The notes beneath the pieces were generated by a model. It ran no database searches and was not told the origin of the DNA. It saw only the letters and a list, made by a program, of their open reading frames with translations. From a virus: a stretch of DNA of 64,000 nucleotides. Positions 30,501-55,376 of this stretch are shown piece after piece (position 1 is the stretch's first letter; every line of letters begins with the position of its first letter). The DNA lies in IMG/VR virus record IMGVR_UViG_3300006735_000001, positions 49,578 to 113,577 of that record. One strand, 5' to 3'. The position numbers and the translations under genes are program-made.

Positions 30501-32887
30501 TGATCCCATGCTCTGCTTTGTAATACTGCTCTTTTATAATCTTCTGATTCAGGTGGATATTGCGCTGGATTAAATAAATTAGGAAACTCATCTCTAAAGT
30601 TATTATAGTCAGTTTGCATTTCTTTAATGTTATCAATTTGATCTTGTAACTTTTCTCTTGCTTTCCCATTCTTAATTTGGGTGGGCGTAAAACCAAAACC
30701 AGCTTCATACAAAGCTTTATCATCTAACTGCATGAAATCTTTAATTTGATCAATAAACAAATGAGAAGTCCCAGTTTCAAAAATTGCATGAGCATTAGCA
30801 AATCTTGATTCATCTTGCATGTTTACAATATTATATAAATCTTCTTGCATCCTAAGATCATTGCTAAGTTGTTTTTGAAAAGTAAGATTAAACATTTTAG
30901 GATCAAAAACAGACAAAGGATCATTTGCCATATTGTCCCATGTATTATTAAGTGCATCTAATGCAGTCTGTACAGTTTTTTCTTTTGCATCTCTAAATTC
31001 TTGAAACGCTTCTTTTTGCTTTTCTGTTGCCAAACCTGTTAAACCAACTTGAGAACCACCGTACTTATATAAAGAAGGTATACCTTGAAATAAAAGCTTT
31101 TGTGGACCTTGTACAAAACCACCCATTAAAAACCCTGACATAAACACTTCAAAACCTTGACCAGAAAGTTGCTCTCCCATACCAGCCTTAATATTAGCTT
31201 TTCTTAAAGCCCATCCTCCTGATAAAGGATCATCTAATATAGCACTGTAGTACCCAGTAGTTGCAGCAGCTACCGCCTCTTGAGATACTTCTTGCACACC
31301 TTCTGCAATATTATTTGCAAAGTATCTTAATGATGAACTAGCTATTAACCCGGCACTTCCCCTAACACCTCCAGCTTTAACTCCATTCCACCATGCTGAA
31401 ATACCAGTGCCTCTATCTTTAAACATTTTACCTACATTAGGTAAACCTGTTTTAGGATTAATACTCTTTCTTGTTCTTAGAATTCTTTTACCTACATTTT
31501 GATAACCCTCTCTAATAGTCATACCCAATGTTCTTCTATAACCCCCTAAAGCATTGCCAAGAACAAACCAGTTACTTGCATAAATAATAGGTGCATTAAT
31601 CATCATAGTCTCAAATGCTGCTTCATGAGACTTAGATATAATCTCTTGCATATCTTTATCAGTGACAGTTTCACCTCTAGCTTCTCTTTTAGTTACTTCT
31701 GAGTTTACTAAATTATTAGCAACCATGCCTCCTTCAAGTCTACCTTCTGATACAGCAAGATTTACAGCACGTAAATCTCTATAGAACCCACCAAATAGTT
31801 TAGTAGTATTAGCAATGTTTCTTGAGTTTTGCGCAACTGTTTTAGTAGTATTCCATCTTTTGAGAGCAAATAAAGTATTAGGGGTAAACGCTTGTCCTAA
31901 AACTTTAGTGCCATTTATTGAACCTTGCCAAAAATTCTTTGCATTTTGAACATCTTTTAATTTTTTTAAAAATTTATTTGCATAAAATGAATTTTTTATT
32001 CCTTGACCAATAGTTTTTACTCCACGAAAAATATTCCAACCAGATCTTGCTACTGTTCCAGCTACAGCAGCACCTGCTGCGGGTGTCGTAGTCCCACCAG
32101 ATGGTATTGTACTTAATCCTAATGCTGAAGTACCTAATACCATTGCTAATTCTTCTACAGCTATAGATGCTATTATACCACCAGTATATGCACTATTTAA
32201 AAAAAAGTTATTAGCAAAACCACCAAAGCCTCCTCTAGTACTATTACCAACCATCATTGCCTCTTCAAATGCTTCTGCAGTTTCATCATCACCACTAAAT
32301 ACTGAATCCCAATCACCAGCCATTACATCTGCTGCAGTTCTATATGAACTCATAAATGCAGCACCACCTAAAGCTCCAAGCTCACCACTCATTCTAGATA
32401 GATCATCCATTATATTGCTATTAGCATTATAGTAAGTTTCCATATCAGCATATGGTACAAATCCTAAATTCTTATATTCTGGATGCTCATAATATCTTCT
32501 AAAATTACTTGACTTGACATCAAATGCAATAGGAGATACATTAATCTTTCCTTCACTTAAATCACCCTGCATTATTTGTTTTGAAGATTCATAACTACCT
32601 GGTTGAGGTGGTCTTGATTGAGAGTAAGGATCAAAATTTGTTGTTGCTGAGCCAGGTAAAGGATTTGAAATATTAGTAGTAGGAACAATAGAATACCTGT
32701 TTATCATTTCCTGAGCAGCTCTTACATTAGTAACGCCACCTGGATCAAGCATCATAGCATCAGCTCTATCCATATCTGGACTTTCAAACATGTCTTCTAT
32801 AGGAGTAAAAGTAAAATTACTTTGAGGTAATGTTTGTTCTAACTGATCTGTTTGTATAGATTGTTCTAAGCTATTTTGATTTAGCAT
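18578..32887 (-). CDS. Giant virion RNA polymerase/metallopeptidase protein
   Basis: A 4769-residue protein. At D3782-H-D3784-G-D3786-K it has the DxDGD Mg2+-binding loop of two-barrel RNA polymerases, preceded by R3743-I-P and GFLP-like DFMPTAMGS, the arrangement I recall from beta'-like barrels and from giant crAss-like phage proteins. A candidate beta-like barrel begins near residue 3295 (DAQGYTTVKGF) and runs to about 3450 (FDGQKYLKF, then KAEKMRVVPL). Structural work on the crAss-like phage phi14:2 showed that such a protein is a virion polymerase transcribing early genes. Residues 2302-2306 (HEAFH), with E2368/E2369 in YYEEYMSDEF, form a separate zincin metallopeptidase site. Near the N terminus (about 210-290) are hydrophobic, Ala/Gly-rich stretches (GGIIASIAVEELAMVLG) that could contact membrane. 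The size is about twice that of phi14:2 gp66. It lies between a 1116-residue virion-type gene and the nuclease gene with 3-11 base gaps. Polymerase call strong; ejection inferred. Confidence 0.82.
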   Translation of the reverse strand: MLNQNSLEQSIQTDQLEQTLPQSNFTFTPIEDMFESPDMDRADAMMLDPGGVTNVRAAQEMINRYSIVPTTNISNPLPGSATTNFDPYSQSRPPQPGSYESSKQIMQGDLSEGKINVSPIAFDVKSSNFRRYYEHPEYKNLGFVPYADMETYYNANSNIMDDLSRMSGELGALGGAAFMSSYRTAADVMAGDWDSVFSGDDETAEAFEEAMMVGNSTRGGFGGFANNFFLNSAYTGGIIASIAVEELAMVLGTSALGLSTIPSGGTTTPAAGAAVAGTVARSGWNIFRGVKTIGQGIKNSFYANKFLKKLKDVQNAKNFWQGSINGTKVLGQAFTPNTLFALKRWNTTKTVAQNSRNIANTTKLFGGFYRDLRAVNLAVSEGRLEGGMVANNLVNSEVTKREARGETVTDKDMQEIISKSHEAAFETMMINAPIIYASNWFVLGNALGGYRRTLGMTIREGYQNVGKRILRTRKSINPKTGLPNVGKMFKDRGTGISAWWNGVKAGGVRGSAGLIASSSLRYFANNIAEGVQEVSQEAVAAATTGYYSAILDDPLSGGWALRKANIKAGMGEQLSGQGFEVFMSGFLMGGFVQGPQKLLFQGIPSLYKYGGSQVGLTGLATEKQKEAFQEFRDAKEKTVQTALDALNNTWDNMANDPLSVFDPKMFNLTFQKQLSNDLRMQEDLYNIVNMQDESRFANAHAIFETGTSHLFIDQIKDFMQLDDKALYEAGFGFTPTQIKNGKAREKLQDQIDNIKEMQTDYNNFRDEFPNLFNPAQYPPESEDYKRAVLQSRAWDHSRMLLMFTKNSMVRAAERAASINSRLQNEPLFKNMSASDLTVLTSKESLVKEMQILTDEISLLKAGEQTDKVKKDLAFKTKKLDLIAKFFTTIINPKNRTKDGKGPFDRRKMKTIEKPFQAYVQFLASQSQKDGLTQTFVDPTEVRKALIDIIDYTYLDGNIGIYNRALLYLMKPENFDEIYNRTLSVVEERFENNYETTKKNLEKYIDIQLANKLINELMSQEDVVVAGDESAEFLQTGDSSVLKNFFTQYGQINATNDKAKWLKIQAIIANYNRMVSKSDQAQNDAEVSEAEVSEVTNKEQEEILSDAGISVVLKKPNNTPMLNSLLNRSYNKYAALTSSKNEPVDSFNKWRSSEEAKLIQTTFNNIKKVWAQGYDSKDSEGNTFKITVSERQVTNEEGFAEFLLTREAIEDPIVQKLLSEAGLTLNDIIDDSDGAPVSKTARPANEGKGPFMQGTKFDVTKVDIDPEPYFELRDKNNNPLKEDVLSLLPKKFKGFIAGIYNTADSASDALNYLDSLMPDDSAYLFDGYTIHLGETVIDRDGQEWLVKSTPKMVSDKGRILLRKKEDNDKNPADVEPMRSVGLGNFRSEYTLQERDVQALTDDFAKLNFGKNVEIYPRVFDNEQSLPDKFSRAQRRLAVILSSLSAEEIQTLNLVIERDPKSGEIKGPYVIPTNPTLKKPNPQLIQAVSVYKIGFSLPLILLDKVNDKLQKENLGALEEGVVFGYVDNGNYAIKPTPESLGLDPRNITIKEVKNIINNATFPEGMQDNELVQSVQDMFTTNILIATQAGKLLGDNNKISISFDSEDMINFDIRTVLTGAIIDFDNVPKPVSELEYQFVNEEGDTFIFDVKRNKGQFKSINEITSVDNDPEFGVEERRKLIDDTVSGLKSQQIYEDKILNGTDRYYLIVKAPNGTYGFATLQAKQLTSDEFSQLAFDLIDQAEKKQEDNKGKTKVQQESSTFNNKFNDEIARDIFIKSNKGGYTVSIQVNPYGEVQMQLYDKNNKKDVATKTPKLTRDEVNDPKISVEAKLVTLISRLNEEIESTGVVITPAKFSKGFPEDATYDEILDKTTTKTATNVFKGQKVRLNANSAGIDAGRGVPDAANASGTFQMTEPYSGKPIGPVLQTPARTSNEAENSVLDITETEYTDMVEGNVPVPVAFLDQIAEVKRRGGEFSLREQGIYDTNSEIIDMKVAIAPNPTTASTNPNQKFDDVVSTVEKQIRALRDPVTGEVSDKNRAKFKSLTTQLYEAKSAARRGNSTQPLGTKTKGKDSNGDIIYLNSDEKAVEDKSIESYIKTIDKGIKNGKITLEKGREMVLKRITKDYDFSMDKMGIIVDYIQDRLDGSIPQVGNNKSSWLMFRDGKQPGLPVKQNNINIQIEELKVSLLEGVAPRDHFKTLQKNEEYQKLLKERDRQDKGLVNKILSGVFTPVFDDLDIVNINDFMMEAERILPDFISIEDIAVLGDNMKAGGVRVGAFQMYLNDLAGGLNVKGTIYTGAQNPFKYHEAFHAVYRLLLTPEQQKRLQSVARKEVRAKLRAEGKSFEKELQKFKNSANTYSDMSRKQLEKLYYEEYMSDEFDKFKINPRNTNTNTEVKSLFNRIIEFIKAFIDRFTTSQLQRTFEDIDAGKYKNASVVSNEFTESVLNDGPIIANALVPFKKIVVKDTEGFDYLDGNIADMIVRGIAASYLARSAKAELPYNPKDIFDEVVDDYQWLYSPNNEVNDLKTDEQKEKLKQIESAFLNYSTLIIEQADNLLEMITDKSVIQEENIDNVEDSVGVRTVSQYDLDASLIGGLKAIPSDVRKYIALTSVSEKDFFGNEYLTKGERIIVPVDFVDAFNSILKSTSNITNPLDFLKSMYFFGEDNVQGGAIVRKLLHDVGYSSESLLTDESFPAEIQNSSLLQSFINGFTNVRLDYLFVERSLAGDVRIYTASQKDDINSQLTRWQQAYYVAKRKLRADSNKTTNVINQIKDFDKALKGSNEMTDKALDKMSKAYSQDLYDNVGIKLSSLFIKVSLLQNRNGKTKKQKSLKKLYSDAKVIQDSGTGSDFSTMSLLSEQLQSNQDIFDEKGGILGRLRELSIANAPFDETVGATIHRNSNGDLVYAHQKPTFNLLFVNNLNNIDFYNNLLADPYKEQNFLLNSEAFKKMSQDRQIRMLRMEGSKVASGALSESNVEDGVSIDNTDYFRTQTYGNFSPKEFSLTQINLYTAFFNTKSGRVDTVIDSQGNESAIAPIFPKVMEASNTSELIGLPVIKTVEGSNAIITDETLDLFLDGIKNEFTRINRESNIDTATETVLGYNDVGGRGFSFFNNTTLLSQEFKNELSKVAYDQGQARNTISFDDAIKFTPYTLSQIREDIRTQLNNEYSDYVQYLIDENIYDEISKKVKDGLVVAEGVSRNNVNESSESLNLIPTNARYNLRQIFFNQKLNAAAFNEAQHGDQARLFKSSADITKRAKGNNNAGTPAYSEVIDTKKGILHTTDDISYILFEEPIENNIDIADAQGYTTVKGFRHLKFGTDSLSTGQAQLLDAMEDGLSESYQSSVYFGNEETPIGLVQDKDMVNSKKYAYFDGQKYLKFTITTLFKEYTSNLNPVTQVWEAKPGMLTLHNLRVAMEKIDASKDTITVAGPLSASKAEKMRVVPLSDINDNIGALEVLPHSTLSAKHMRLQQITPSNQLEGPDPTQIAEIITNIPVQFYKTKVPGLRDLNGDALDLKQIITAYNEVKTKKFKLSFNNKRNLIYEFESAVNDFNISNNTDITPKLAAFLKFAEKSLKAGKTSTNLLEFFSSVDGKQNYNLNNPITAPKFEQLFLNYFAKGVFSQKVPMVKLTLVSPFGVKKYRRVYDVEIVNGETIPTRSEIVRDKVFDRLGLTVEKDLQDLTPGNIPAKGYIVLDRLRVVPVYSNPKNPNSYTGERAMEMQMPAHHSSVRDLIENTNAPIPNVIARQFAVRIPTDDFHSSTPSLLVDFMPTAMGSVGMYAQELIEIAGSDHDGDKTFAHIKDFYVQDGVFKEYGKTKNKREEYLEYVRYSNRLVKAKGSQLQSVFELYSNNELDARIDSSPDSAVIDIATDPIDKQGGGMLLDTAKALAVLGLPISPAQYSEYKLKYGYPFEAPFNNQLLDYKFALVGNESMTTGNNPISYTPTSEEPINAALKLLEEKEQKIIGLDSNNYFRDKRADTPYDPSSFLGQAIAFQDNKGASIGASVLPNLYLSNLVEAGSEITDKTFTPIIDGITYNSFDPGSVEQAKINQDGKAAIVSMTVDNPTNRFVGKAGFNKHATSLAMNMLSLGMPMETIILLINTPTIRQVYKNASESNYSPYRVNKEIKKAFAVILNTFDDKKPSVPKLTSEMMSDYINANYNENLDPAEFYDVDLSILREFAKASRLQEFTNNMAAVTGLTKGLGKSMQNISRRKKQIEKLFDKDAPINLNKVFGPNTWHGTYIEGFNLLTNNLLPATFLRSSIDFQEILSLIADQMDLTNQATNEEMLDKISLDLLSYLTIKGYRNNMMENESHVVGGLTNDILYPSKQENIVDIVNRLKETPEGVDNDFLNGFLIVTDSKNSKSGLNLAEANTFRVMNSLMKVDLQNGFSRLYGSPNTRQDAMNLVSYMMVKDGLQIGYGTLLDAVNPYILNKYLSHVNTVNDALRGKQSIDTVFGQDIRSLINEFIKGYTVAAASNDKVFTLSSSDVGVSIEITPEGTQSLVVDWLEYYRDLGIEPIRNDKGFYRGPRLYSFNYLVQGEDGPTVSRAVAMEEWDVQDIQKKMTVTYSLESTKGSPRQNGIGFMFGDLISTNDLNKYRSENQKSSDIMPGESMAPISSYENAVKEMALKQQNSNITAVQGTPMQDSGIKVKLDPEAKETNIEDTAKLAEQISANSEAVEEDERQAYTIEDVDTSNPEMTDPQTSLFNELKLSLEEIYPVLYNFWTDTINPSAENRKIMRAQGAGTFKKFIGKFNDKNLKYESEQDYVEDVKKCILKK

Positions 32888-41446: not shown

Positions 41447-44400
41447 TTAAGAATTTCCTATGACATGTGTCATAACATAATTAGGTATAGACATATTTGC
41501 TAATTTAGCTGATTTATAATTCTTCCTATTAAGTTTATCATATACTCTTTGAGCTTGTTCTTTTGAACCTCCTTCTTTATATATACCCTTAATGTAGTTT
41601 GTATAAATTTTATTCATAGATCTTAAAGGGCCTCCTTTTTGTTTAAAATATTCTATAATATCATTATACTTAGGATTAATAATAATATTTTCAAACTCAT
41701 CATTAAATTTAGAGTCCTTCCTCTTTAAGATTTTATTAATATAATCACTTGATTCATTATTTATAGAGTCTGTCCAATCTGTAGAATTATATATATCTAT
41801 ACCTTTATTTTTTAATTTTGTTATTGAATTTTTTGCACCAGTTGGACCAGCATTATATGCAAATAAAATTTTAGCCAAAACAGATTCATCATTACCTTGA
41901 TTTAAATAAGGTCGTTCACTTAAATAGTTCATCCATTTTTTTTGTGCTGGGATAGCCTGATTTATATCATATGGATCAAAATCATCACCTACTATTTTTA
42001 AACGTTGCATTTCTTCAATAGTTATAGGTGTAAATTGTGCAACACCTTTAGCATCCTTTTTAGATGTAGCATTTGCATTAAAAGATGATTCTTTAAATAA
42101 TTGTCTTAATAATAAATCATTACTTATAATTGGTGCACTGTTCTTTGTAATAATTTGTGCTCTGCTTGGTGTAGAAACGGGACCTCCTTCTTGATATTTC
42201 TTTTGTTTTATATTTAAATACTTAGAATTCTTTAATGCATTCCGTGTATAGGCATCTCTATTAGGATCACTACTACTAGTTCCTGCATATAATCTTGGTA
42301 AATCTTCTATGGCTACATTACCACCTTCTCTGTTATTACGCAAGTATGCTAAAATACCTACTGTACCTAATGCAGCTTTTTTTGGATCATCAAAGTCTTC
42401 ACCACTTGTTATACCTAAACTAGCTAATGATTTTACTAACTCAGGTTCCTTTAGTATTTGACCCCATCTAACTTGTGTTAATCCCATACTAGCATTATTA
42501 GGATCAGATATACCTACATTATCAAGTAAATTATTTACATTTCTTTCTGCTTTATAGTCTGCACTTCCTCTAGGTCCTATTTTTAAACTATCAGGTAAAT
42601 CTAAATTATCAATAGCTTTATCATAAAGAGATGATCCAAATTTTAGACCAGCTCTTACAGTATTACCTATTGCACTATGTGTATCTCCAAAACCTGTTTC
42701 ATTTCCAAATATACCAAAAGCTAATCCCGCTAAATCATTATATACATCACCATTAACTTTTAAATTTTTCATTACAAGTTGTTTATTATCTTGCAGTGAC
42801 TTAGCAAAAGGTACTACTGTATTATTGTATTCTTCATCATCGTCACCAAAAAAATCAGTTTCATTAAATTGATCTTCTTTAAATTTATCATCTATAGATA
42901 CTTGTATAGGTTTATAGTTTAAAGTATTAACGGTTCTATTTATTCCTTGCCCTTTTTGTATATTACCTCTATCATCTTCATATTCTAAATAATCATTTCT
43001 TTTAGAACCAGCCTTAAAATTTAATTGACCATTTTCAAATACAAACTTATTTCCCTCATCTTCTGGTAGTATAAATACTTCAGAGCTTTGTTGCAAATAA
43101 TCTGTCAATACATTTAAACTGCCTTGATTACATCTTATGCAACCATTAGATACTCTACTGTTATCATCATCAATATATCCTGCATGAAGTGAGGTTCCTA
43201 CATTTTGACCAGATTCATTAGATAAATTAAAGCTAGGTAAATCCATATAACCAGCTCTGTTTATATTAGATATTTTATATCTTCCTGCTCCTGTCATTTT
43301 ATTACCAGCTGACCAATCAATATTATCTGGTGATATTTCATCTTGACTAATAGTACCATCTTGATTTATATCTACATATTTTGTAACTGTTTGAGCATCA
43401 CCCATAACTGCACCTAAATCTACAGGAGCACTATAAATAGGTTCATTTGGATTATTACCTGGCTCATAGACATGCATCAATCCGGATTGTTTATCTACTA
43501 TTACATAAGGTTTATTATTATTTGATTGATTCTGAAAGTTAACAATCAAATCAGCTTGACTCATTTTATTAAATTCATTAGCCCTATTTTTTACATCAGC
43601 AATATCTTCATACTCATCTATATCTACAACATCAGTAGAACTATATGGACTAGCAACCAATTCATTTTGAACTTGTATATCTTGTGCTTCTCTTTGTCTT
43701 AATCCAGCATTTGTCATATCTTCATCAGATGGATTAAACTCTTCACCTTTTAGATTTGTTCCATAGTTTTTATTATTATAATTAAATATTTTATTAGGAC
43801 CATAGTAATCTCTTGCTATTCTAAATGCAGAATTAAAATCTTGTGCACCATTAATTCTATCATCAACTTCTACTACACTTAATGTAGAAAGAGGTGTATC
43901 AGCAGTATTAGATGGAGGTAAATTAGTAGATGGCGTAGGTTTAAATTTATTAGGATTATCTAATAACTCTGATCTTAACTTCATATTTACATCATAACTA
44001 CCATCAGTTAATCCTTGTTCTTTAGCAGCTGACCATGGAGTTCCAGTAACATTTTCCCAAATATCACTTACTGCACCACCTTGTTGTGCTTTAGGTAATG
44101 TTTTAATCTTACCGTTCTCAGTTCTAGCATATCTATTATTTTCATTTTCCATGCTAGGAATGAGTGTGCCTGAATAAGTTTTACCTTTCCATTGCCAGCT
44201 TACTGATCCACCTTCTTTAAAACCTAATTTGTTTTTCCAGTAATTTGGTATATTTTTAATACCTTCCATAGAGATGTCTATATCATTAATGGGAATACCA
44301 GTCATCTCTGCAAAACTATCAACATCAGAAAGCCCCTCAACCTGAGGAATAAATTGAGCTCTTTCATTATATAATCCTTTTAATACATTTGGTATTGTTC

Positions 44401-47400
44401 CTTCTGGTAGATTATCATATATATCTTTTATATCATTACCTAGTTTACCTAATCTATTTTTTGCCATTTGAACTCTACCTGTACCAGGTTTATCACCACC
44501 AGGAAGAACATCTGATAAAAATACATCAAGATCAGCCAATGTTTTATTTCCTAATCTTTCAAAATATGCAGGATTATTTCTATTTTTTATTGCTTTTATT
44601 GCTGTAGGATTTTGTAATACTGTTTCTACTGCATTATTTATTTCATTTCTATCTAAACCATCTAAATAATTTGTGAGAAGATTAATGGTGTCACCACTAA
44701 GATCTACTTTTGCTTCTTCTTTTACTAATTTTGCTAACCCATCAAATCTACTTGTCCTTTTTCCTTTTACACTTCCTGGAACTATTTTATCACTATAATT
44801 TTCTAAAATATTATCCATAACAAAATTAGGATCAGTAATACCCCCTCTACTATTTTCTGGTGAATTAGGATCCATACCTAAGGCCAAACATACTCCAGTA
44901 GCACAATTAGAATCTAAAAAGTCATAATTATATATGCTGTTATCCTCCAATGATAAAGGAAGTTTAGTTGTGTTCATTCTTAAATTACTATGAATAGAAC
45001 TTCTTTCAGTACCTTCAAATAATTGTGCTTGATCTACAAAACCTTTTATTTCTTCATCAGATAAATCTAAATCTAAAACTCTTACCTCATTTTTCCCTTT
45101 ATAATCTTTTTCACTAACACGCTTATTTCCTGAACCAGTTGACCATCTATTTACACGGCCAACTAAATCAGTACCAGGTATTTGATTTACTTGATCACCT
45201 GTATCAGTATTAATTAGTACAGCTTCAATATGTCCAGGACTAAACTTTTTACTTCCATAAGGATATTGTATAACTCTTACATTATATTTTGAATAATCTA
45301 TTTCTTTACCGTCTTGAGCCATATTCCAACTTACTAAACCACCTTCTTTTTGTTGGTTTAATCCCGCTGCTCCTATAATAGCTGGAGGTGCAATAGCAGG
45401 AAAAGCTTTATTATTCATTAATTTAGATAACTTTGGATATGTTGAAGGATCTAAAAAATCTAATAATCTAGTATTACTAAAAAAACTATCTGAAAATCCA
45501 GGATTCTTCTCAATTAAACCAGCAGGTCTTGCAGAAAAACTTTTTTTTGCTGCATTTAATATGCTAGGGGTTATTTCATCATATATGTTATTTATTAAAC
45601 CCCTCTCTAGCATACTTCTCCTTAGTTCAACAGCAAAAGGTATAGGTTCATCTCCTATATATCCTTGTCTAGGGTTAGGACTTCCAGTTGCAAAGTAATC
45701 ATAGTCACTTGTTAATTGTTTACTTCCAGTATTGATCTTAGCTTTGTTCAAACCAAAACCAGTACCAGAAGACAAATCTAATTTAGTATTAACTAAATCG
45801 TTAGGTTTAAGTACTCTGAATTCATCACTCAAACCTATAGGTCTGTTAGCATTAAATAAATGTCCAATTTCATGATCTAAAGTAGTATTAAGACTTTTAC
45901 CACTAAACATAGGGCCTACACCTATAGTTCCTTTTCCAGGTTTAAGACCTAATCTAGTTGTAAATGAATAATCTCCTGACATAGGAGAACTTCTATTTAC
46001 AGTTATTACATCACCCACTGTACCTCCAGCACCTGGATTCCTAAAATATGCATTAGTAAATAAACCTTGATTTTCACTTATAAAATTTTTTGCTATATCA
46101 TAGTATTCACTAGAAGGATTTCCTGCACCATCATTAAACATATTACGTGCATGATGATTAATGGTATTTCCTTTTAAATTTGATAATTCTTGATATCTAG
46201 CTAATGCTGCTGATTGAGCTGCATCATCTAATGTAGTACCTGCTGGCGGAACATAACCAGATGCTTTTAAATGATTTAACTCTTGATTTGCTAGTCTATT
46301 AAAACCTTCTGATCCAGGTTTAATCTCATCTAGTCTCATTGTTATAAAATTATCTATTTCATCAGCATTTCTACCTAACATTTCTAAACCATCTGTTAGA
46401 TCAGGATTACTACCAGGTGTAGCGTCAAAGATCCTATCTCTTACACTTTTTATTTTTTGCATGTCTACATCTACAACATCATCAAAATTAGTAGGTGAAA
46501 TACCTCTGTCATTAAATTGATTTATTTGGATTCCTCTACCACTTGTAGAAGCTCCTGTAAAATATTTACCTGCATTAAGCGCTGGTATACCCATAGATAA
46601 AGCATCAAGCCCTACTGTAGCAGCATTACCCAAAGTAGGGTTATCAATAAACTGTTTTGTGTCGGGAGCTATATTACCTGCTCCATATACAAAACCTACT
46701 CCATCTAATGTTTGACCAACAGTAGCTCCAGTAGAAATTGGTCTATAGTTCATTGCTTTAGAAAAAGGTTGCCCTATATACTTAGAAGCAAATCTTCCCG
46801 CAGGACTGTTAGCTAAGAATCTTAATCCTTGTGGTACTCTACTAAGTCCTCCTACTGCACCCATTCCCATTCCTAATACAGGAGCTGTTGCTGCTCCAAT
46901 AATATTCATAGTATTCATCTGCATTGCATCTCTCTTCTGCAGCATGTCATTCCACTGCGGTCTGAAAAACTCATCCATTGTATAATCCCCAAGGGCTGTT
47001 CCTCTTTGATAGTTTCTCCCATACTTTTGGTTGTATTCCTCTAGAGTCCCTTTGAAAGGTGAATACCACCAATCTGGATCATTTTCTAAATATTCAGGTT
47101 TCTCATACTCATACTGATATATATCCTTTCTTCCCCTACCTGTATTTAATAATCGTGAAACTACATTTCCATCTTTATCTGAGTCACGGAAGGCTGTGTC
47201 TTTTTTTCTTTTTGGTGCACTTAAAACAATTTCATCTAAATCATAACCATCAGTTGTCATTTTAGTTGGTATAACCCCTTCTTCTAATTCTACTGTTTCA
47301 CCAGCAGTCTGCATTTTTGGTAGTTTTAGATATTCAGGTCGGTTTGGTTCTCTTCCAAACAGTCTATCATAATAATTTTTATCATAAAGCTCTCTAGTAT

Positions 47401-48004
47401 ATTCTGATGGAGTGTATCCTCCATCTTCTGCCCATGTACCACCTGTATACCCGTCTATATTATGGTATTTAGACTGATTACTAAATGTTGGATGATTTGG
47501 TTTTTTCCATTTATCACTTCCATGATTATCCTCATCCATTTTCATATAGTCACCAGACTTCCAAAAACCTTGAATATCATATGCTCCAAGATCCATTGTA
47601 ATATCTCTACCCTGTCTTTTAGATTCAGAAGTTACCCAAGCATCATATTTAATTTTTTCTTCTTCTGTAAGTGGTGTATTATACTTTTCTTTAAATATCA
47701 TTTCAGGGTCACCACCAACTTGAGCCATAGGTACTTCAACAACATAGTCTGCATCTTTGAAGTTATAATTTAATTCTCCAGGTTTCATATCCTGAACCAT
47801 ACCATTATTTCCATATCCCCTAACTGGAAAGTCTACACCTTCCATAGTAATATTATTTGACTCAATAATATTAAACGGATTGTTTACATCAGGGCTATCT
47901 GATTTATATCCTTCTACAGATATGTATTGTGTTATATTCTGTAAGAACTCATTAGGTCCACCCGGAAGCCCTCTTCTTTCTGTTTTTGAATAACTTTTTT
48001 TCAT
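41447..48004 (-). CDS. Multi-enzyme cell-wall-penetrating virion protein
   Basis: A 2185-residue protein with at least five enzyme-like sites in one chain. (1) A zincin metallopeptidase at H711-E712-x2-H715 (LDHEIGHLFN) with a later Glu in FAVELRRSM. (2) A permuted NlpC/P60-like site with H925 (PGHIEAV) before C1034 (SNCATGVCLALG). (3) A YkuD L,D-transpeptidase domain with H1607 and S1619-N-G-C1622-I-R, interrupted earlier by a canonical EF-hand loop at 1545-1556 (DINQDGTISQDE). (4) A lysozyme-like domain at E1769 (GNETGFG) with SMGLTQVRW. (5) An SLT-type transglycosylase at E1972 (FKESSFN) with AKGVAQFTP and AYNAGPTGA. The N-terminal 350 residues are structural-looking, followed by Gly/Ala-rich hydrophobic stretches near 370-400. 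KxGG segments separate the modules (QKEGGLVSW, FKEGGSVSW, YQEGGPVS). It overlaps the muzzle-like gene by one base. Most likely it opens a path through peptidoglycan on infection. Confidence 0.78.
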   Translation of the reverse strand: MKKSYSKTERRGLPGGPNEFLQNITQYISVEGYKSDSPDVNNPFNIIESNNITMEGVDFPVRGYGNNGMVQDMKPGELNYNFKDADYVVEVPMAQVGGDPEMIFKEKYNTPLTEEEKIKYDAWVTSESKRQGRDITMDLGAYDIQGFWKSGDYMKMDEDNHGSDKWKKPNHPTFSNQSKYHNIDGYTGGTWAEDGGYTPSEYTRELYDKNYYDRLFGREPNRPEYLKLPKMQTAGETVELEEGVIPTKMTTDGYDLDEIVLSAPKRKKDTAFRDSDKDGNVVSRLLNTGRGRKDIYQYEYEKPEYLENDPDWWYSPFKGTLEEYNQKYGRNYQRGTALGDYTMDEFFRPQWNDMLQKRDAMQMNTMNIIGAATAPVLGMGMGAVGGLSRVPQGLRFLANSPAGRFASKYIGQPFSKAMNYRPISTGATVGQTLDGVGFVYGAGNIAPDTKQFIDNPTLGNAATVGLDALSMGIPALNAGKYFTGASTSGRGIQINQFNDRGISPTNFDDVVDVDMQKIKSVRDRIFDATPGSNPDLTDGLEMLGRNADEIDNFITMRLDEIKPGSEGFNRLANQELNHLKASGYVPPAGTTLDDAAQSAALARYQELSNLKGNTINHHARNMFNDGAGNPSSEYYDIAKNFISENQGLFTNAYFRNPGAGGTVGDVITVNRSSPMSGDYSFTTRLGLKPGKGTIGVGPMFSGKSLNTTLDHEIGHLFNANRPIGLSDEFRVLKPNDLVNTKLDLSSGTGFGLNKAKINTGSKQLTSDYDYFATGSPNPRQGYIGDEPIPFAVELRRSMLERGLINNIYDEITPSILNAAKKSFSARPAGLIEKNPGFSDSFFSNTRLLDFLDPSTYPKLSKLMNNKAFPAIAPPAIIGAAGLNQQKEGGLVSWNMAQDGKEIDYSKYNVRVIQYPYGSKKFSPGHIEAVLINTDTGDQVNQIPGTDLVGRVNRWSTGSGNKRVSEKDYKGKNEVRVLDLDLSDEEIKGFVDQAQLFEGTERSSIHSNLRMNTTKLPLSLEDNSIYNYDFLDSNCATGVCLALGMDPNSPENSRGGITDPNFVMDNILENYSDKIVPGSVKGKRTSRFDGLAKLVKEEAKVDLSGDTINLLTNYLDGLDRNEINNAVETVLQNPTAIKAIKNRNNPAYFERLGNKTLADLDVFLSDVLPGGDKPGTGRVQMAKNRLGKLGNDIKDIYDNLPEGTIPNVLKGLYNERAQFIPQVEGLSDVDSFAEMTGIPINDIDISMEGIKNIPNYWKNKLGFKEGGSVSWQWKGKTYSGTLIPSMENENNRYARTENGKIKTLPKAQQGGAVSDIWENVTGTPWSAAKEQGLTDGSYDVNMKLRSELLDNPNKFKPTPSTNLPPSNTADTPLSTLSVVEVDDRINGAQDFNSAFRIARDYYGPNKIFNYNNKNYGTNLKGEEFNPSDEDMTNAGLRQREAQDIQVQNELVASPYSSTDVVDIDEYEDIADVKNRANEFNKMSQADLIVNFQNQSNNNKPYVIVDKQSGLMHVYEPGNNPNEPIYSAPVDLGAVMGDAQTVTKYVDINQDGTISQDEISPDNIDWSAGNKMTGAGRYKISNINRAGYMDLPSFNLSNESGQNVGTSLHAGYIDDDNSRVSNGCIRCNQGSLNVLTDYLQQSSEVFILPEDEGNKFVFENGQLNFKAGSKRNDYLEYEDDRGNIQKGQGINRTVNTLNYKPIQVSIDDKFKEDQFNETDFFGDDDEEYNNTVVPFAKSLQDNKQLVMKNLKVNGDVYNDLAGLAFGIFGNETGFGDTHSAIGNTVRAGLKFGSSLYDKAIDNLDLPDSLKIGPRGSADYKAERNVNNLLDNVGISDPNNASMGLTQVRWGQILKEPELVKSLASLGITSGEDFDDPKKAALGTVGILAYLRNNREGGNVAIEDLPRLYAGTSSSDPNRDAYTRNALKNSKYLNIKQKKYQEGGPVSTPSRAQIITKNSAPIISNDLLLRQLFKESSFNANATSKKDAKGVAQFTPITIEEMQRLKIVGDDFDPYDINQAIPAQKKWMNYLSERPYLNQGNDESVLAKILFAYNAGPTGAKNSITKLKNKGIDIYNSTDWTDSINNESSDYINKILKRKDSKFNDEFENIIINPKYNDIIEYFKQKGGPLRSMNKIYTNYIKGIYKEGGSKEQAQRVYDKLNRKNYKSAKLANMSIPNYVMTHVIGNS

Positions 48005-51000
48005 TAGCGTTTAGATAATAGTAATTTAGTATTGTCTAATCTAAGTAACATTTTTCTGTCACCAGATACATTTCTTCTTAAAATTACTTGGTTGGAATAA
48101 TGTCTAAACTTTTTTCTTTGTGTATTAGGTTTATTATAATTTAAGTTGACACTATTTAATGGTCTTATATATCCATTACATTCTGTATTAAATATAGACT
48201 GTTCTACATTTGTAAACTCTCCTCTATCATTTGTTATATCCCAAAATTGATTAAATCTAAATTTATGTTCAACCTTAGATGATAAAATTTCAATACTATT
48301 TGGAGTTATAATAGGATAAGCTAATTCACCCCAAGGATTTTCTGAAGGTTGAGTATTTAATATTAATTGTCCTGAAACCTGATCACTGTTATATACAATA
48401 GATGAATCAAAATTAAAATCTAAATCTTCCCATTTATCACCACCACACATGTAAAATTGTGGATCTCCTTTATACACATATGATTCTAATTGATATTCAA
48501 AACTACGTACAGTATTTACAGTTTGTCCAGTATTAGAAATTATATCTATTTCCCAAGGATAATTTTTATTATAAAAATTAACAAAAGAATCACATCTAAA
48601 ATTATGTCTCCATATTGAGCCAGTTTCTTTACTAGCTTCTGTTGTTTCTTCTAAATAATAATTACATAATCTTGGATCTGCTTGTGGTGCATCTGCATCA
48701 ACCATTTGATAAATTTGTGGAGCAGTATCAGGGCATGTACCTATAGGAGTAACCACTGAACCTGGTACAGTATTAGGTGGACAACTACATGTAACTTTTC
48801 TACATATAGGTGGATTTGCAGGATCACAGTCTCCTGTGCTATTAATATATGAATTAGTAACAGGATCTCTATATACTAAAGTATATCCTGTAGGACATTC
48901 ACACGTAGTTGGTGTACCACATATATCAGCCGCTATTCCATTTGCTACTATATCCCAATTAGTTATAGGGTAATTGGCATCTATACTAGATTGTATACCA
49001 TATTGGAATGGATCTGTAACTACCCCAGGACCTTGATTAGCAGTAACAGGACCAGGAGTACATGTTATAGTATTCAGTGTAGTATTAAGAGGGGTTCCAC
49101 CAGGAAAAGGACTATTAACCCCACAAAATAATGCATATACAAACTGATCATTTGGGGCAGTACCATTTGTAGCTGCTAATGGTGATTGATAAGCACAACC
49201 TGTAGCTGCTCCAACAGTAGCATCTGTAACAAGTAAAATTATTTTTCTAAAGTTTGCTTGTCCAGTTCTATCTCCTAACTGACTATTTGCTCTATCATTT
49301 AATAAATCTTGTGCTCGATGTAATGCATTATCTGTACATGTCTGGGCATTAATCCAGTTACTAGTGAAAAAATTATCTGCTTGAGTTTGAATAGTATTTG
49401 AATTACTACTCATACTAACTGGTGATGGAGTTCCTTGTATTTGTCCAGTTGCGCATGTTGTTGCAGTACTATTCCAAAGTCTACTACTTTGACAAGCATC
49501 AGCATTTCCAGGAACGCAAACACCATTAACCGTTTGACCTGACCAGCTAACAAAACCAATTTGCATAAGGTTATTATCTAAAGCTGTTGTTACAGTACTA
49601 TTTGATAAAAAACTATTTAACCAACCCATTTCTGCATTAGCCCTAGTTTGAGCACCATCCTGAGTTGGAGGTCCATTAGTACTACCTGATGTATCTATTG
49701 CAATTACTAAATCTACTAAACATGATTGAGATCCGCCACTTGTATTTGAAGCTATATTCTCTACAATTATATCAGCTGGCTCAGTAATATTTGTTGCTCT
49801 TTCACACAAACCTGAGGTTGAATTATAATTATATCCTGGTGGACATATTGGTTCTGCTGATTCTATTGTCTTAGTAGTAAAGAAATGATTTATACTTGGT
49901 AAAGATATTTCTGGATGCCAGTCATGAAATGATAACCACGCTTGAGTTTTTGGATCATAGCTGCAAGTCCATGAACAATCATCAAAAAATAATGGATCAC
50001 CAATATCAACATTTATTGTTCCAGTTGGTAAAGCCAACCTAACAGGTTTTACTAAACTATTTGTAAATGTAGCTACTGTAATATATTCTGGTTTAATTCC
50101 AAAATCTCTTTTCATAAAATACACTACATCATCAACAGCATCATACATAACTTGACATCCCACTCCTTTTACAGGATTGTCTGACCAAACTGATTCTTCT
50201 GAATCCGGAAATTGTTTTACAAATCTAGATGGTAAATATTTTGCAAACCACCACTTCATTCCTGCATTTGATATAGGAGATAAACCTCTACCAGGTACAT
50301 ATTGAAATATTTTTCCTTGTGCTTGAGAAATATAGAATAAACCTGCAGCTGTATTTATTACACCTCTAATACTTTCACATGATCCATATTCCATAGATAT
50401 ATCTGCGTTAGCAATATTTTGCATAGGTTGACTAAATAATCCTCCATCACCAATTGTTATCTTTGTATCTAGTTGAGTTTTTAAAGTATCAACTCCATTA
50501 AATAAACTTGGAGATAAATTTGGAAAAAATACTACAGCACCGTTTTGATTAACAGGTTTAATAACACTAACCTCATTTTTAAAGTCTTTATAATTAAAGT
50601 TTAAGAACACCCTCCAATAATCCTTTCTAGCTTCTTCTTGAGCCTGTAATGAGTATATTAATCTTTTTGGGTATGATACAAAACAAGTCTCTGCAACCAA
50701 TGGATCATAATCTAAAGGTTGTACCTCTGCAAAAGAACCAAGTTGAGAAGGAAACTTAGATGGACTTAAAGACTCATCATATTTATAAAAGTTTCCAGCT
50801 TTTTCAATCTTTGCATGAAATAACTCATCTATATCATTATTACTATATGATGAATATATTTGTCTACCAGGTAAGTCTTCATACTCTCTCTGTGTCAAAT
50901 TGATTTCTGATTCAACAAAGAAATCTAATATACCATTACTATGTGTATACATATATGCATATTCCATTGCAAATGCTGGATTAGGATCTGAACCACCTCC

Positions 51001-54000
51001 AAATATTTGATCCCAGTTGGTAGAACATGAATCATTTCCTCTATCTAAATAATATAAATCACCTGGATATTTATTGTCTACCTCACTTGTACTTGCAAAA
51101 CCAAAAGTAGCTATCTCTGATGCTAAAACACTCATGTCAAACTTTTGAGAGTTTAACCAAAATCTTGGGTAAGGTATATTTGCATATAAAGAATAATTGT
51201 AAGTAAAGCCATCAGGCTGACCCATTAAATAATCAGTAAAAATAGGCATGATAGTTTTTTCAGTAAATCTACCCACAAATGTATCACCAGAAAAAATAGG
51301 TTTACTAGTATATAAAAATTCATTTGGTTTTGTTGGATCTATTAATTCAACACAACCTCTCATCTGTACTTGTTTAATTCCAGAGAGTTGACCATATTGA
51401 TTATCAAAATTAAATTTTAATGCACCATAATAAGATGAAATTGGTGACTGCTTACCAGCTCTAGGATCTAATAAATAACTATCAGAAAAAGGTGCAACTA
51501 CTGTTTGAGTATATTCTCCCTGTGCATTTTGAAATAATTCCATTTCTCCACCAACTACAAATCTTGATTTATCTTTGATAGTTGGATCAGAAACTTGTTT
51601 ATCTAATGCTACTACAACTGTTTCAGGTCTAAATAAATTATTTATTTTATAATTACCTCCATCAAAAAGCTGAAAAGAACTTCCTACATAATTTGAGTCA
51701 GTATTTTTAATTCTCCATAAACCATTTACTTGATTACTATAATTACTATAAAATCCTAATGAATTATATTTCCATGCAAAATCTGAATCCTTAACCAAAT
51801 TATACATTAGTTCTATAATCTCATTACCACCAATTGCAATATTAGATTGAGTTAATACTAAAGAAGTTATTAATCTAGCAAATAAAGGTAGATTAGAAGT
51901 GCTAGTATCTTTATCAGTTCCAAGAGTTAAACGACCACCTACAACTCCAGGAATAGCTCCTAAAGCTTGATCAGTCTTTAATTTAACATCATTAATTATA
52001 TCAAAAACGGCACCTCCTGTGTATACATCATCTACAGTTCCTGCTGTATCTATAACAAGAGCTGTAGCAATATCTGTTAATGTATTCGCTGCAATAGCAC
52101 CTAATTGGAAAGCTGAGATAGTAGCTGTAGTTCCTAGTCCAGGAGAAGTAAATATCCCACCACCATTTGTAAAACCTCCTACTATGAAACCTCCTTCACC
52201 ACCTAATCCAGCAGAGTCTGCTGTCATACCTTGTCTATCGTCTTTTCTTGTTCCTCTAATTTGATGTAATGCATACCCAAATCCTAATATAGAAGCAACT
52301 AATCCAGCTGACCCTCTTAATAACTTAAATTGAGGATGTTCTTCTGAAGGTTTGAAATATCCTGTAGAGGAGCCACTTAACTGACCGTATAATCTTGTTT
52401 CATAAGCATTTAAAAATGGTTTAGTAAACATTAAATCTGGTGAATGAAATGTAAATGCTTTTCTAGAGTATCCACTTGGTTCTCCATTAACATCAGGTCT
52501 ATCACCTAATGCTCTAAAAGTAGTTAAAGATTGTCCAAGGGTATCACATCCATCAGTTCTGTTTAATGAGTTCTTACCTCCTTCATGAAAATAAATATCT
52601 GGTCTCAAATCATTATATGGATAATTAGGATAAAGACCTTGTGTAGATTGACCTATTAAATTATCTCCATTTGGTATAGTATACTTACGCATATTTCTAA
52701 ATATACCTTTACCTAATATTGATTTAGCCCCTAGTCTAGAACCACGTAGTATTTCATAACCAACTATATTTTCTATATATGTACCATCATTAAATTTTGG
52801 TCGTTCAATATTTTCAAACTGAACACCTAAAATATTTATTAAATCACCATTGGTATCAGTTAAATGTAATTGAGAAGCAATTTGTTCAGTTGGCATTTTA
52901 TGATGTCTAATAAATTTACCACATAAATTACCCCATATATCTGGCCTATTAGTAGGATATCTTTCTGTTGATTCCCAATATCCCATATCTCCTTTAGCTG
53001 TAATAATTGATCCATCTTCTTGATCAATATTTAATGTACTAGTTAATGATGCAGTATTATATACTTTAAATAACTTATCTCCATTAATATCTAATACATT
53101 CTCTCCAAATATTAATTCATTTTCTAAAAGTATATTTCCATTTGCATTATAATTTCTTGGTGCACGTCCAGGTATATGGTATGAAGATGATCTTTCTCCA
53201 GTATTATAAATCCATCTTATGAAAAATGCATATTGCTCATCTCTCATAAAATTAAACTTATTACCACCATTACTATAATAATTTGATGGTACTGCATTAG
53301 TAACCCACTGAACTTTTATATTATTTGCTAAAGGTTGGTAATTAAAATCAAATTGTTCTACCGGCCCCTGTCTAATTAAATAGTCATTAACTACAAACAT
53401 TGACTCAGACTTTTCATAAGCTGGAGTACGTAAAGGAATATTTTTTAAACTTACTGCAGTTAATGCTGGGTCAATAAAATCTAAATTTATATTGTTTGTT
53501 TGTGTACTATAAAATCCAATTCTTTTTGCTGATGTCTGTCCTTGATTACGTCTTAAAATAACAAGTTCAAAGTATTCATAATCTTCATCTAAATTAGATA
53601 CAGAAATATTTAATGAACCAGCTGAACCATCATCAGCCCAAATAGTTTGTATATTAGATACACCTATATAATCAGTTACTTTTTGTTCATTTTGCACATA
53701 TGCTATATATGCTTGATAAGCACCATTTCTTAATTGTCCACCATCTGTAGACTTCTCAAGTTTTACACAAGGAGTGTCAAGTAAAGGAGCCAACCTAATC
53801 TTTTCACAATCTAATTCCTTTGGTTCTATATCCTCATATACTGCACATGAATTACCGTCTATTCCAGGTCCACTTATTTGTACTTGTTTGTATGGTATAT
53901 CATCTACATTTAATGATCTAGATGGATTATTTCCATCATCCCAATAAACTTGCCAAGTACAATCAAAATTTTCTTTTGCTGCTCCAGTTATTAAATGCTT

Positions 54001-54402
54001 TCTGCTAAAACTTAAACATGGGTCATTTATTAATACAGTATATTTACACTCACTATCATCAAATCTACCTATCTCTGAGTTTATATCATCTGTAGAATAC
54101 ACAATCCATTCATCACCATATCTGTGTATTGCACCTATAACAGTATAAGGAATAACTCCACATAGTAAGTTTGAAGGTTCATTACCTACAACACCTAAAT
54201 CTCCATCTTCTGAATTATTTACTAAATTACGTGCATGCCACCATGATTGATTATTTTCCAAAGAAGGTGCAATATCTTTGTTCATCCCCTTTACAAAAGA
54301 GTTTGTTTGAACAGTAGATGAACTTCTTGTGGTTGGTGTTCTCCGTCTACTAGAAGGTTGCTGTCTGGAATTCTTTGAAGACTGTCTTCTTTGTTTTGCC
54401 AT
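48004..54402 (-). CDS. Tail muzzle/stabilization-like protein with inserted vWA domain
   Basis: A 2132-residue protein. A very basic, Ser/Arg/Gln-rich start (1-30) is followed by SFVKGMNKDIAPSLENNQSW, an opening typical of this large tail protein. Residues 1470-1510 (DDCSWTCSYDPKTQAWLSFH) and the final 200 (WRHNFRCDSFVNFY, FNQFWDITNDRGEF, QRKKFRHYSNQVILRR) match blocks I recall from the crAss-like tail stabilization/muzzle family. Between them, at about 1510-1928, lies an extra 415-residue region holding a von Willebrand A domain (DTSGST at 1570-1575, the MIDAS metal site, and ILLVTDATVG later) followed by a Cys-rich segment. In the relatives I recall, the two flanks are adjacent. It is likely to be an exposed tail-tip adhesin as well as a structural part. 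Confidence 0.72.
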   Translation of the reverse strand: MAKQRRQSSKNSRQQPSSRRRTPTTRSSSTVQTNSFVKGMNKDIAPSLENNQSWWHARNLVNNSEDGDLGVVGNEPSNLLCGVIPYTVIGAIHRYGDEWIVYSTDDINSEIGRFDDSECKYTVLINDPCLSFSRKHLITGAAKENFDCTWQVYWDDGNNPSRSLNVDDIPYKQVQISGPGIDGNSCAVYEDIEPKELDCEKIRLAPLLDTPCVKLEKSTDGGQLRNGAYQAYIAYVQNEQKVTDYIGVSNIQTIWADDGSAGSLNISVSNLDEDYEYFELVILRRNQGQTSAKRIGFYSTQTNNINLDFIDPALTAVSLKNIPLRTPAYEKSESMFVVNDYLIRQGPVEQFDFNYQPLANNIKVQWVTNAVPSNYYSNGGNKFNFMRDEQYAFFIRWIYNTGERSSSYHIPGRAPRNYNANGNILLENELIFGENVLDINGDKLFKVYNTASLTSTLNIDQEDGSIITAKGDMGYWESTERYPTNRPDIWGNLCGKFIRHHKMPTEQIASQLHLTDTNGDLINILGVQFENIERPKFNDGTYIENIVGYEILRGSRLGAKSILGKGIFRNMRKYTIPNGDNLIGQSTQGLYPNYPYNDLRPDIYFHEGGKNSLNRTDGCDTLGQSLTTFRALGDRPDVNGEPSGYSRKAFTFHSPDLMFTKPFLNAYETRLYGQLSGSSTGYFKPSEEHPQFKLLRGSAGLVASILGFGYALHQIRGTRKDDRQGMTADSAGLGGEGGFIVGGFTNGGGIFTSPGLGTTATISAFQLGAIAANTLTDIATALVIDTAGTVDDVYTGGAVFDIINDVKLKTDQALGAIPGVVGGRLTLGTDKDTSTSNLPLFARLITSLVLTQSNIAIGGNEIIELMYNLVKDSDFAWKYNSLGFYSNYSNQVNGLWRIKNTDSNYVGSSFQLFDGGNYKINNLFRPETVVVALDKQVSDPTIKDKSRFVVGGEMELFQNAQGEYTQTVVAPFSDSYLLDPRAGKQSPISSYYGALKFNFDNQYGQLSGIKQVQMRGCVELIDPTKPNEFLYTSKPIFSGDTFVGRFTEKTIMPIFTDYLMGQPDGFTYNYSLYANIPYPRFWLNSQKFDMSVLASEIATFGFASTSEVDNKYPGDLYYLDRGNDSCSTNWDQIFGGGSDPNPAFAMEYAYMYTHSNGILDFFVESEINLTQREYEDLPGRQIYSSYSNNDIDELFHAKIEKAGNFYKYDESLSPSKFPSQLGSFAEVQPLDYDPLVAETCFVSYPKRLIYSLQAQEEARKDYWRVFLNFNYKDFKNEVSVIKPVNQNGAVVFFPNLSPSLFNGVDTLKTQLDTKITIGDGGLFSQPMQNIANADISMEYGSCESIRGVINTAAGLFYISQAQGKIFQYVPGRGLSPISNAGMKWWFAKYLPSRFVKQFPDSEESVWSDNPVKGVGCQVMYDAVDDVVYFMKRDFGIKPEYITVATFTNSLVKPVRLALPTGTINVDIGDPLFFDDCSWTCSYDPKTQAWLSFHDWHPEISLPSINHFFTTKTIESAEPICPPGYNYNSTSGLCERATNITEPADIIVENIASNTSGGSQSCLVDLVIAIDTSGSTNGPPTQDGAQTRANAEMGWLNSFLSNSTVTTALDNNLMQIGFVSWSGQTVNGVCVPGNADACQSSRLWNSTATTCATGQIQGTPSPVSMSSNSNTIQTQADNFFTSNWINAQTCTDNALHRAQDLLNDRANSQLGDRTGQANFRKIILLVTDATVGAATGCAYQSPLAATNGTAPNDQFVYALFCGVNSPFPGGTPLNTTLNTITCTPGPVTANQGPGVVTDPFQYGIQSSIDANYPITNWDIVANGIAADICGTPTTCECPTGYTLVYRDPVTNSYINSTGDCDPANPPICRKVTCSCPPNTVPGSVVTPIGTCPDTAPQIYQMVDADAPQADPRLCNYYLEETTEASKETGSIWRHNFRCDSFVNFYNKNYPWEIDIISNTGQTVNTVRSFEYQLESYVYKGDPQFYMCGGDKWEDLDFNFDSSIVYNSDQVSGQLILNTQPSENPWGELAYPIITPNSIEILSSKVEHKFRFNQFWDITNDRGEFTNVEQSIFNTECNGYIRPLNSVNLNYNKPNTQRKKFRHYSNQVILRRNVSGDRKMLLRLDNTKLLLSKR

Positions 54403-54416
54403 AATTTATTTACTCT

Positions 54417-55376
54417 TTAACAAGTGGGACATGTACTAGTTGATGTAGAATTACCTACAGCTGTGTTTTGAGCAGGAGAAATACTAGGCTGAGCAGGTGC
54501 ATAACTTAAAAACATATTATAAAAATTATGATATTGAGCTCTACGGTTCATTGTCCATACCTTTCTCATTTCTGCAAAGTTAGGAGTGTTCACAAATGTC
54601 AATGCATTATTTCTTGAAGCACGTAATCTTTGCTCTATTAATCCTAATTGATCACCAACTTTTTCACCTTGAAACATCATGTTTTCAAGTATACGTTGTT
54701 TAATAGCATACTCATAATACTCATTACAATATGGATGATCTAAAAGTAATAAATCTCCTTCTGCATTTTCCATAGCTCCTTGATAACTTAAATATACTTT
54801 ACCAGTAGTAAAGTTTGTTAAAAGAAAACCATCTTTAATTTCTGCTACATCTAAAGCTTGAGCACCTAAAGCAGGACAATAGCATACTTTATCATTAAGT
54901 CCAGTTATTCTTAATTGAGACCAATGATTGTATATTCTAAATTGTTCTGGACCTATTCTTTGAATAAGCTGATGTGAATTTTTATCATCACAAGTTTTAA
55001 TTACACATACATCTCTGCATTTAGAATCATCACATGGTCCTGATTCTCCTGGAGCTGGTACATAAGGTACATCATTAAAAGTTTCTACATGTGTACCTGA
55101 AGGTAGTGTAGAATTTATTTTATACTCGCCACATCTAAAACCATAATTAACATATTGAAAATCCATAGGTAATTGTGCTCTGCCATGCTCAACATCTATT
55201 ATTACTTCTTTAGTTCTATGTATTCTTAAACCTAAATCATAATTAACTCGTTGTGCCACTTTAATTAATTGTTGTGGCTCTATCATTCCTTCTAATGCAT
55301 AAGTAGAAAAATCAATAGAGACACTCTCCATTAATTGACTAAATGTTTTATATTTTTGTGAAACTCCATTTCCCAT
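54417..55376 (-). CDS. Ring/tail-hub-type virion protein
   Basis: A 319-residue protein. It opens with KTFSQLMESVSIDFSTYALE and IKVAQRVNYDLGLRIHRTKE, the helical start I associate with one of the crAss-like ring (tail hub) proteins. A Cys-rich mid-section (PCDDSKCRDVCVIKTCDD, near residues 118-135) may bind metal. The region around residues 205-260 is helical (NEYYEYAIKQRILENMMFQG). The C terminus ends in a Ser/Thr/Pro tail with CPTC. Placed between the muzzle-like gene and a second ring-type gene, with which it overlaps by one base. Role inferred from context and family memory. Confidence 0.6.
   Translation of the reverse strand: MGNGVSQKYKTFSQLMESVSIDFSTYALEGMIEPQQLIKVAQRVNYDLGLRIHRTKEVIIDVEHGRAQLPMDFQYVNYGFRCGEYKINSTLPSGTHVETFNDVPYVPAPGESGPCDDSKCRDVCVIKTCDDKNSHQLIQRIGPEQFRIYNHWSQLRITGLNDKVCYCPALGAQALDVAEIKDGFLLTNFTTGKVYLSYQGAMENAEGDLLLLDHPYCNEYYEYAIKQRILENMMFQGEKVGDQLGLIEQRLRASRNNALTFVNTPNFAEMRKVWTMNRRAQYHNFYNMFLSYAPAQPSISPAQNTAVGNSTSTSTCPTC

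Follow-up and report, generated by a model that had tools for sequence, protein, structure and literature searches.

A von Willebrand A domain inserted in the tail muzzle protein of crAss-like phages: a putative exchangeable host-surface binding module

The muzzle, or tail-tip channel protein, encoded in the analyzed viral DNA (the window, 64,000 nucleotides of IMG/VR record IMGVR_UViG_3300006735_000001) carries an insert with a von Willebrand A (vWA) domain and a complete MIDAS. Taking its evolution and fold together, this insert is probably an exchangeable, hexavalent, metal-dependent module of the muzzle that would bind the host surface, a reading held here with moderate confidence. Swappable receptor-binding modules of phage tails are already known; what would be new here is the siting of such a module on the muzzle and its being a vWA domain.

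Identity of the Muzzle Protein

The tail locus of the window comprises the following two genes:

54417 to 55376, minus strand: tail ring protein 1, upstream neighbor of the muzzle gene (Pfam CrAss_Ring_1, E 1.4e-7)
48004 to 54402, minus strand: muzzle (tail-tip channel) protein, an open reading frame of 2132 aa

It is the CrAss_Ring_1 neighbor that identifies the tail locus. Among annotated phages, the closest relatives of the window muzzle are found in a Leptolyngbya phage, in csAssE-Sib, where the protein is annotated as a muzzle, and in Cellulophaga phi4:1. Homology to the csAssE-Sib muzzle spans most of the length (hhalign 100%, E 1.9e-73, 1438 columns), and phi4:1 gp042, a virion protein detected by MS, is matched at 8e-18 in tblastn. 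Furthermore, the window protein matches PHROG 37948 (virion structural protein) with an E-value of 5e-38. A putatively related tail-end channel protein of solved structure, phicrAss001 gp44, has a tail ring gene, gp43, directly upstream (PMC10172136); its hhalign match (E 7.6e-5, probability 62%) covers only the N-terminal part, and the C-terminal blocks of both proteins give a plausible MAFFT alignment. A profile search of the PDB with the window muzzle returned no match. With respect to the order Crassvirales, the genes compared were those of the tail. Elsewhere in the window, an open reading frame of 4769 residues (18578 to 32887) has no Pfam match at E 0.01.

Boundaries of the Insert

Alignment with relatives divides the C-terminal region of the muzzle as follows:

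49867 to 50262, minus strand: N-side flank, residues 1381-1512 (MKWWFAKY ... SFHDW ... HFFTTKT), conserved in relatives
48622 to 49866, minus strand: whole insert, residues 1513-1927 (415 aa), absent from the sister clade
49732 to 49866, minus strand: N-terminal connector with a CPPGY...C motif, residues 1513-1557, retained in vWA-less loci
48913 to 49731, minus strand: vWA domain, residues 1558-1830 (residues 58-330 of the AF2 model), matched by VIA-align and Foldseek
48622 to 48912, minus strand: C-terminal Cys-rich connector (8 Cys), residues 1831-1927, from the Cys count and locus comparison
48007 to 48621, minus strand: C-side flank, residues 1928-2132 (GSIWRHN ... end), from the alignment with relatives

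In the sister clade, which shares about 40% identity with the window muzzle, the SFHDW and WKHN blocks start 25 residues apart, as against several hundred in the window protein, and the 415-aa block is the sole difference of such size in the alignment. The flanks are also contiguous at this site in csAssE-Sib, Cellulophaga phi4:1, the Leptolyngbya phage and phicrAss001 gp44, the last of which has no insert there. The sequence-only reading had proposed an insertion of about 415 residues between blocks that are adjacent elsewhere, flanked at residues 1506 and 1930 and ending in a Cys-rich tail. The insertion and its length are confirmed by these comparisons, and the boundaries lie within 7 residues of those proposed. 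The insert as a whole has 4.6 Cys per 100 residues compared to 1.1 in the rest of the muzzle, and motifs of the CPPGY...C type occur in the short connectors on both sides of the vWA. The N-terminal connector persists in vWA-less loci (L037, L021, L101, L105 and L121), and the C-terminal one is retained in loci with a vWA, a PA14-like module or no module.

The phi4:1 protein gp042 (L072) has an insert of its own, about 280 residues long, which lies one loop ahead of the vWA site and precedes the motif EDASWTLAYDP. This part of the muzzle accordingly accepts insertions at other points too.

Fold and Metal Site of the vWA Domain

The AF2 model of the insert, obtained with 35 homologues (pLDDT 82, pTM 0.64), and its comparison by VIA-align both give a vWA domain with a Rossmann-like alpha/beta fold; the Foldseek and VIA comparisons covered mainly the vWA part of the insert. 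The top VIA-align match is 7n1o (Z 17.9, rmsd 2.3, 173 residues), with Z values of 17.9 for the CMG2 vWA, 15.7-17 for integrin I domains and 16.0 for SpaC and Mfa5. When sorted by E-value, the Foldseek list is headed by PitA (E 2.5e-8) and SpaC, both pilus adhesins. At the level of sequence, the Pfam VWA_2 match to the insert (E 9.5e-5) is below the Pfam cut-off. Integrin I and vWF A domains share the fold and the MIDAS (Z about 15.7-17), but their identity to the window vWA is only about 12-17%.

The ligands of the MIDAS are placed as follows:

49681 to 49695, minus strand: MIDAS motif 1, D1570-x-S1572-x-S1574, invariant in 35 homologues
49339 to 49341, minus strand: MIDAS Thr1688, invariant in 35 homologues and present in 78/80 of the wider set
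49222 to 49224, minus strand: MIDAS Asp1727, invariant in 35 homologues and present in 76/80 of the wider set

All five residues are invariant in the 35/35 homologues, and the complete MIDAS, which had been read from the DTSGST motif, is upheld together with the vWA fold. In the wider set of vWA domains, the Asp and the two Ser of DxSxS are retained in 78/80, 78/80 and 79/80 cases, respectively. Binding of a divalent metal at this site is predicted. L096, L100 and L179 are missing several, or even all, of their acidic and serine ligands; these losses, together with the existence of phages devoid of the module, indicate that the module is not essential.

Distribution of the Insert and Other Modules at the Site

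A scan of IMG/VR provided 68 muzzle loci, and three further scans with HMM-based extraction extended the set to 159 distinct muzzles. The site is empty in 58 of them and holds a vWA in 80, a PA14-like module in 7, the connector only in 6 and other content in 6, with 2 short cases. In a backbone tree of 143 rows, from which the insert was left out, 93 rows form one clade (SH-aLRT 100) and the site is occupied in 87 of these; in all 50 rows outside the clade it is empty. The occupied site is a trait of the whole clade and not a novelty of the source phage. An insert unique to that phage is ruled out by the 80 vWA-bearing muzzles. The idea that homologues throughout the order carry the region is likewise rejected, as in the tree the insert does not occur beyond this single clade.

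Nor is the site specific to vWA domains: PA14-like, protease and other modules are accommodated there as well, as are bare Cys-rich connectors, or nothing. The designation "PA14-like" is tentative and relies on weak Pfam matches (E 0.0045 for L179 and 0.15 for L168) and on the sequence pattern. In L179, the PA14-like module is followed by a vWA without MIDAS. The replacement module of L044, modeled with AF2 from two sequences, reaches a pLDDT of 36, and further modules occur without an assigned family in L102 and L115 and in L164, L210 and L241. Among the 6 muzzles with other content, L270 (11767-13782) has the motif HEMGHVVGAYH at the module site, with Pfam matches to Reprolysin_5 (E 1.2e-5) and to Reprolysin_3, the latter above its cut-off; this reprolysin-like zinc protease could represent a surface-degrading variant of the module.

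The module gave no match in 50,697 phage and 72,556 plasmid records searched for cultured phages and plasmids; the nearest cultured phages are Leptolyngbya phage Lbo-JY46 and Cellulophaga phi4:1. A host search in genome contigs returned 7 matches, in MAGs of unrelated phyla, which pointed to no usable host. One Campylobacteraceae MAG contains two muzzle types, L120 (empty site) and L121 (connector only), probably two phages binned together.

Gain, Loss and Cassette Exchange

At least 15 changes are needed to account for all site labels on the backbone tree. Their simplest reading would be a single gain of connectors and module, followed by losses and replacements. Reversions to an empty site are seen in the grouped L094, L097, L098, L104 and L106, and in L120, and the vWA alone has been lost in L037, L021, L101 and L105. 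The absence in L037 is clean, with DNA about 90% identical to L023 around it.

Furthermore, vWA cassettes have been swapped between near-identical phages in two clean cases. The DNA of L003 and L004 is 89-100% identical over about 8 kb upstream, falls to 56-75% across the vWA and then returns to at least 95%; in protein terms, the backbones are 96% and the vWAs 44% identical. Each vWA has its closer counterparts in other phages, at 76-77% identity for L003 (L001, L006 and L017) and 76-81% for L004 (L009, L024, L026, L057 and L065). The second case is L081, which combines the backbone of L079 (mostly 85-99%, insert 62-76%) with a vWA of the L080 type (backbone mostly 70-88%, insert 85-97%). The module is exchanged and diversified among close relatives, as expected of phage receptor-binding proteins. 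A diversity-generating retroelement target was considered and rejected, as no reverse transcriptase (RVT_1) match is present in the 113.6-kb record, itself possibly incomplete.

In the gene downstream of the muzzle (window 41447-48004; 2185 aa), which matches SLT and, weakly, YkuD, the first 98 or so residues are conserved and are followed by a hypervariable block. This block (13574-14660 in L003, 14500-15850 in L081, 14400-15700 in L012 and 14400-15760 in L024) is exchanged even between phages with an unchanged vWA, and is a second hotspot, independent of the vWA site.

Rate and Pattern of vWA Evolution

The dN/dS ratio of the vWA exceeds that of the N-side backbone in 17 out of 17 close pairs, not all of which are independent, with ranges of 0.18-0.89 and 0.02-0.30, respectively; the values for L012/L018, for instance, are 0.43 and 0.14. 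As no ratio is above 1, the domain is taken to be constrained while evolving in a relaxed or diversifying way, and positive selection is not proven. The variation is localized on the MIDAS side. The standard deviation of length reaches 10.7 in the MIDAS-side loops, compared to 0-1.9 in the loops of the opposite side and 0 in the main strands, and in ten close pairs replacements amount to 13.8% in the MIDAS-side loops and 8.5% elsewhere in the vWA (p 9e-5). Collectively, fast evolution, swapping and replacement by other surface modules suggest that the vWA is probably a device for gripping the host.

These patterns also bear on the nature of the partner. The module might instead bind non-receptor material (particles, mucus or extracellular polymers, for example) and thereby keep the phage close to its hosts. 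The repertoire at the site, with vWA, PA14-like and other modules, does resemble general surface-binding domains; nevertheless, fast replacement and cassette swaps between close phages favor an evolving cellular target, and we regard this alternative as unlikely. Slightly less credible still is a structural role, in which the vWA would bind a virion protein (fiber hub, fiber or neighboring muzzle subunit) and stabilize the tail end. Protein-protein contacts are frequent for vWA domains, the connectors are Cys-rich and conserved, and disulfide-stabilized contacts occur in crassvirus tails (PMC10172136). However, the module is lost or swapped for unrelated folds while the flanks change little, and variation is greatest in the MIDAS-side loops, where a fixed partner would be expected to have the opposite effect.

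Position on the Muzzle and Proposed Function

The insert site aligns to the gp44 turn FYAFKD/GKMWEQF, near residues 1235-1239, and by its sequence pattern would correspond to the B-C hairpin of the last beta-propeller blade. In the standard propeller topology, B-C loops and between-blade loops lie on one face; this topology, combined with a low-identity assignment of the gp44 strands, suggests that the insert is on the distal, cell-facing side. Below the gp44 propeller are IG1, located between blades 2 and 3, and IG2, an insertion in blade 3, and published length variation of muzzles concerns the crass and IG2 regions, not the last propeller blade (PMC10172136). The AF2 insert model has long strands at both ends (4-19, and 412-422 with 424-437), compatible with a ribbon-like stalk. 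The vWA presumably protrudes from the muzzle, and its location at the outermost tip is likewise presumed. With regard to the tail-tip location proposed by the sequence-only reading, the alignment to gp44 would place the site on a hairpin in the last blade of the propeller and not in the tip-forming crass domain.

In the proposed mechanism of host binding, the last-blade B-C hairpin would be drawn into a two-stranded ribbon carrying the vWA, and six vWA domains, the number per muzzle expected by analogy with gp44, would ring the channel exit and face the cell. Their MIDAS faces would bind a variable host-surface protein (or glycoprotein) through a divalent metal, in the manner of bacterial pili tipped with a vWA, and this binding would position and steady the channel for ejection. 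The distal muzzle is thought to contact the cell (PMC10172136), and in the PilB pilin a vWA module binds host proteins, with the MIDAS required for pilus function (PMC8179133). Against this proposal, PilB bound fibronectin and fibrinogen in vitro without a need for metal (PMC8179133), and in crassviruses the tail fibers are the expected primary receptor binders (PMC10136315). The adhesion role put forward by the sequence-only reading is in keeping with the fold, the MIDAS conservation, the module swapping and the fast evolution; it is amended in that the trait belongs to a whole clade and the site is not vWA-specific.

vWA and I domains are able to change shape upon ligand binding, as is established for integrins. 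The vWA could act as a trigger and not merely as an anchor: on binding its ligand it would shift the last propeller blade and so assist gate opening. The propeller that holds it also carries the gate loop (gp44 blade 4; PMC10172136). Phages whose site is empty, however, have to open their gate with no vWA, and a trigger is improbable. In a broader scheme, the last propeller blade would be a general docking site at which a large crAss-like lineage tests host-contact modules (vWA, PA14-like, protease and others), and the vWA would be a switch whose MIDAS, once it has bound a ligand, pulls the blade and contributes to the opening of the ejection gate. This scheme is speculative and has a low probability; if true, receptor recognition and gating would be united within one protein.

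Relation to Known Systems and Significance

The exchangeable host-surface binding module favored here resembles the vWA-tipped pilus adhesins (SpaC, PitA, RrgA, Mfa5 and PilB), in which a surface structure likewise ends in a vWA with a MIDAS and adjacent variable loops. Those, however, belong to bacterial pili, whereas the muzzle is a channel protein of phages that is hexameric as judged from homology. Sequence identity between the two is 11-19%. The vWA-MIDAS proteins of other phages and archaeal viruses (phicrAss001 gp52, Hardycor1 and CobT-like proteins) share the occurrence of a vWA in a tailed virus, but they are encoded by separate genes and are not parts of tail proteins, and the archaeal ones adjoin AAA ATPases or CobS. 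The gp52 gene (L074, 29503-30270) encodes a standalone vWA protein and is distant from the muzzle gene. Among the papers searched, none links von Willebrand domains to crAss-like phages or to Crassvirales.

The crass domain of the muzzle has only been presumed to touch the cell, and the insert bears on the contact between crAss-like phages and their hosts during ejection. As a defined module of the channel protein itself, it can be detached and its metal site can be mutated, and it adds the muzzle site as a new exchange site within the known modularity of phage tails. With natural phage pairs that are near-identical except for the module, the part played by the muzzle in choosing a host becomes testable.
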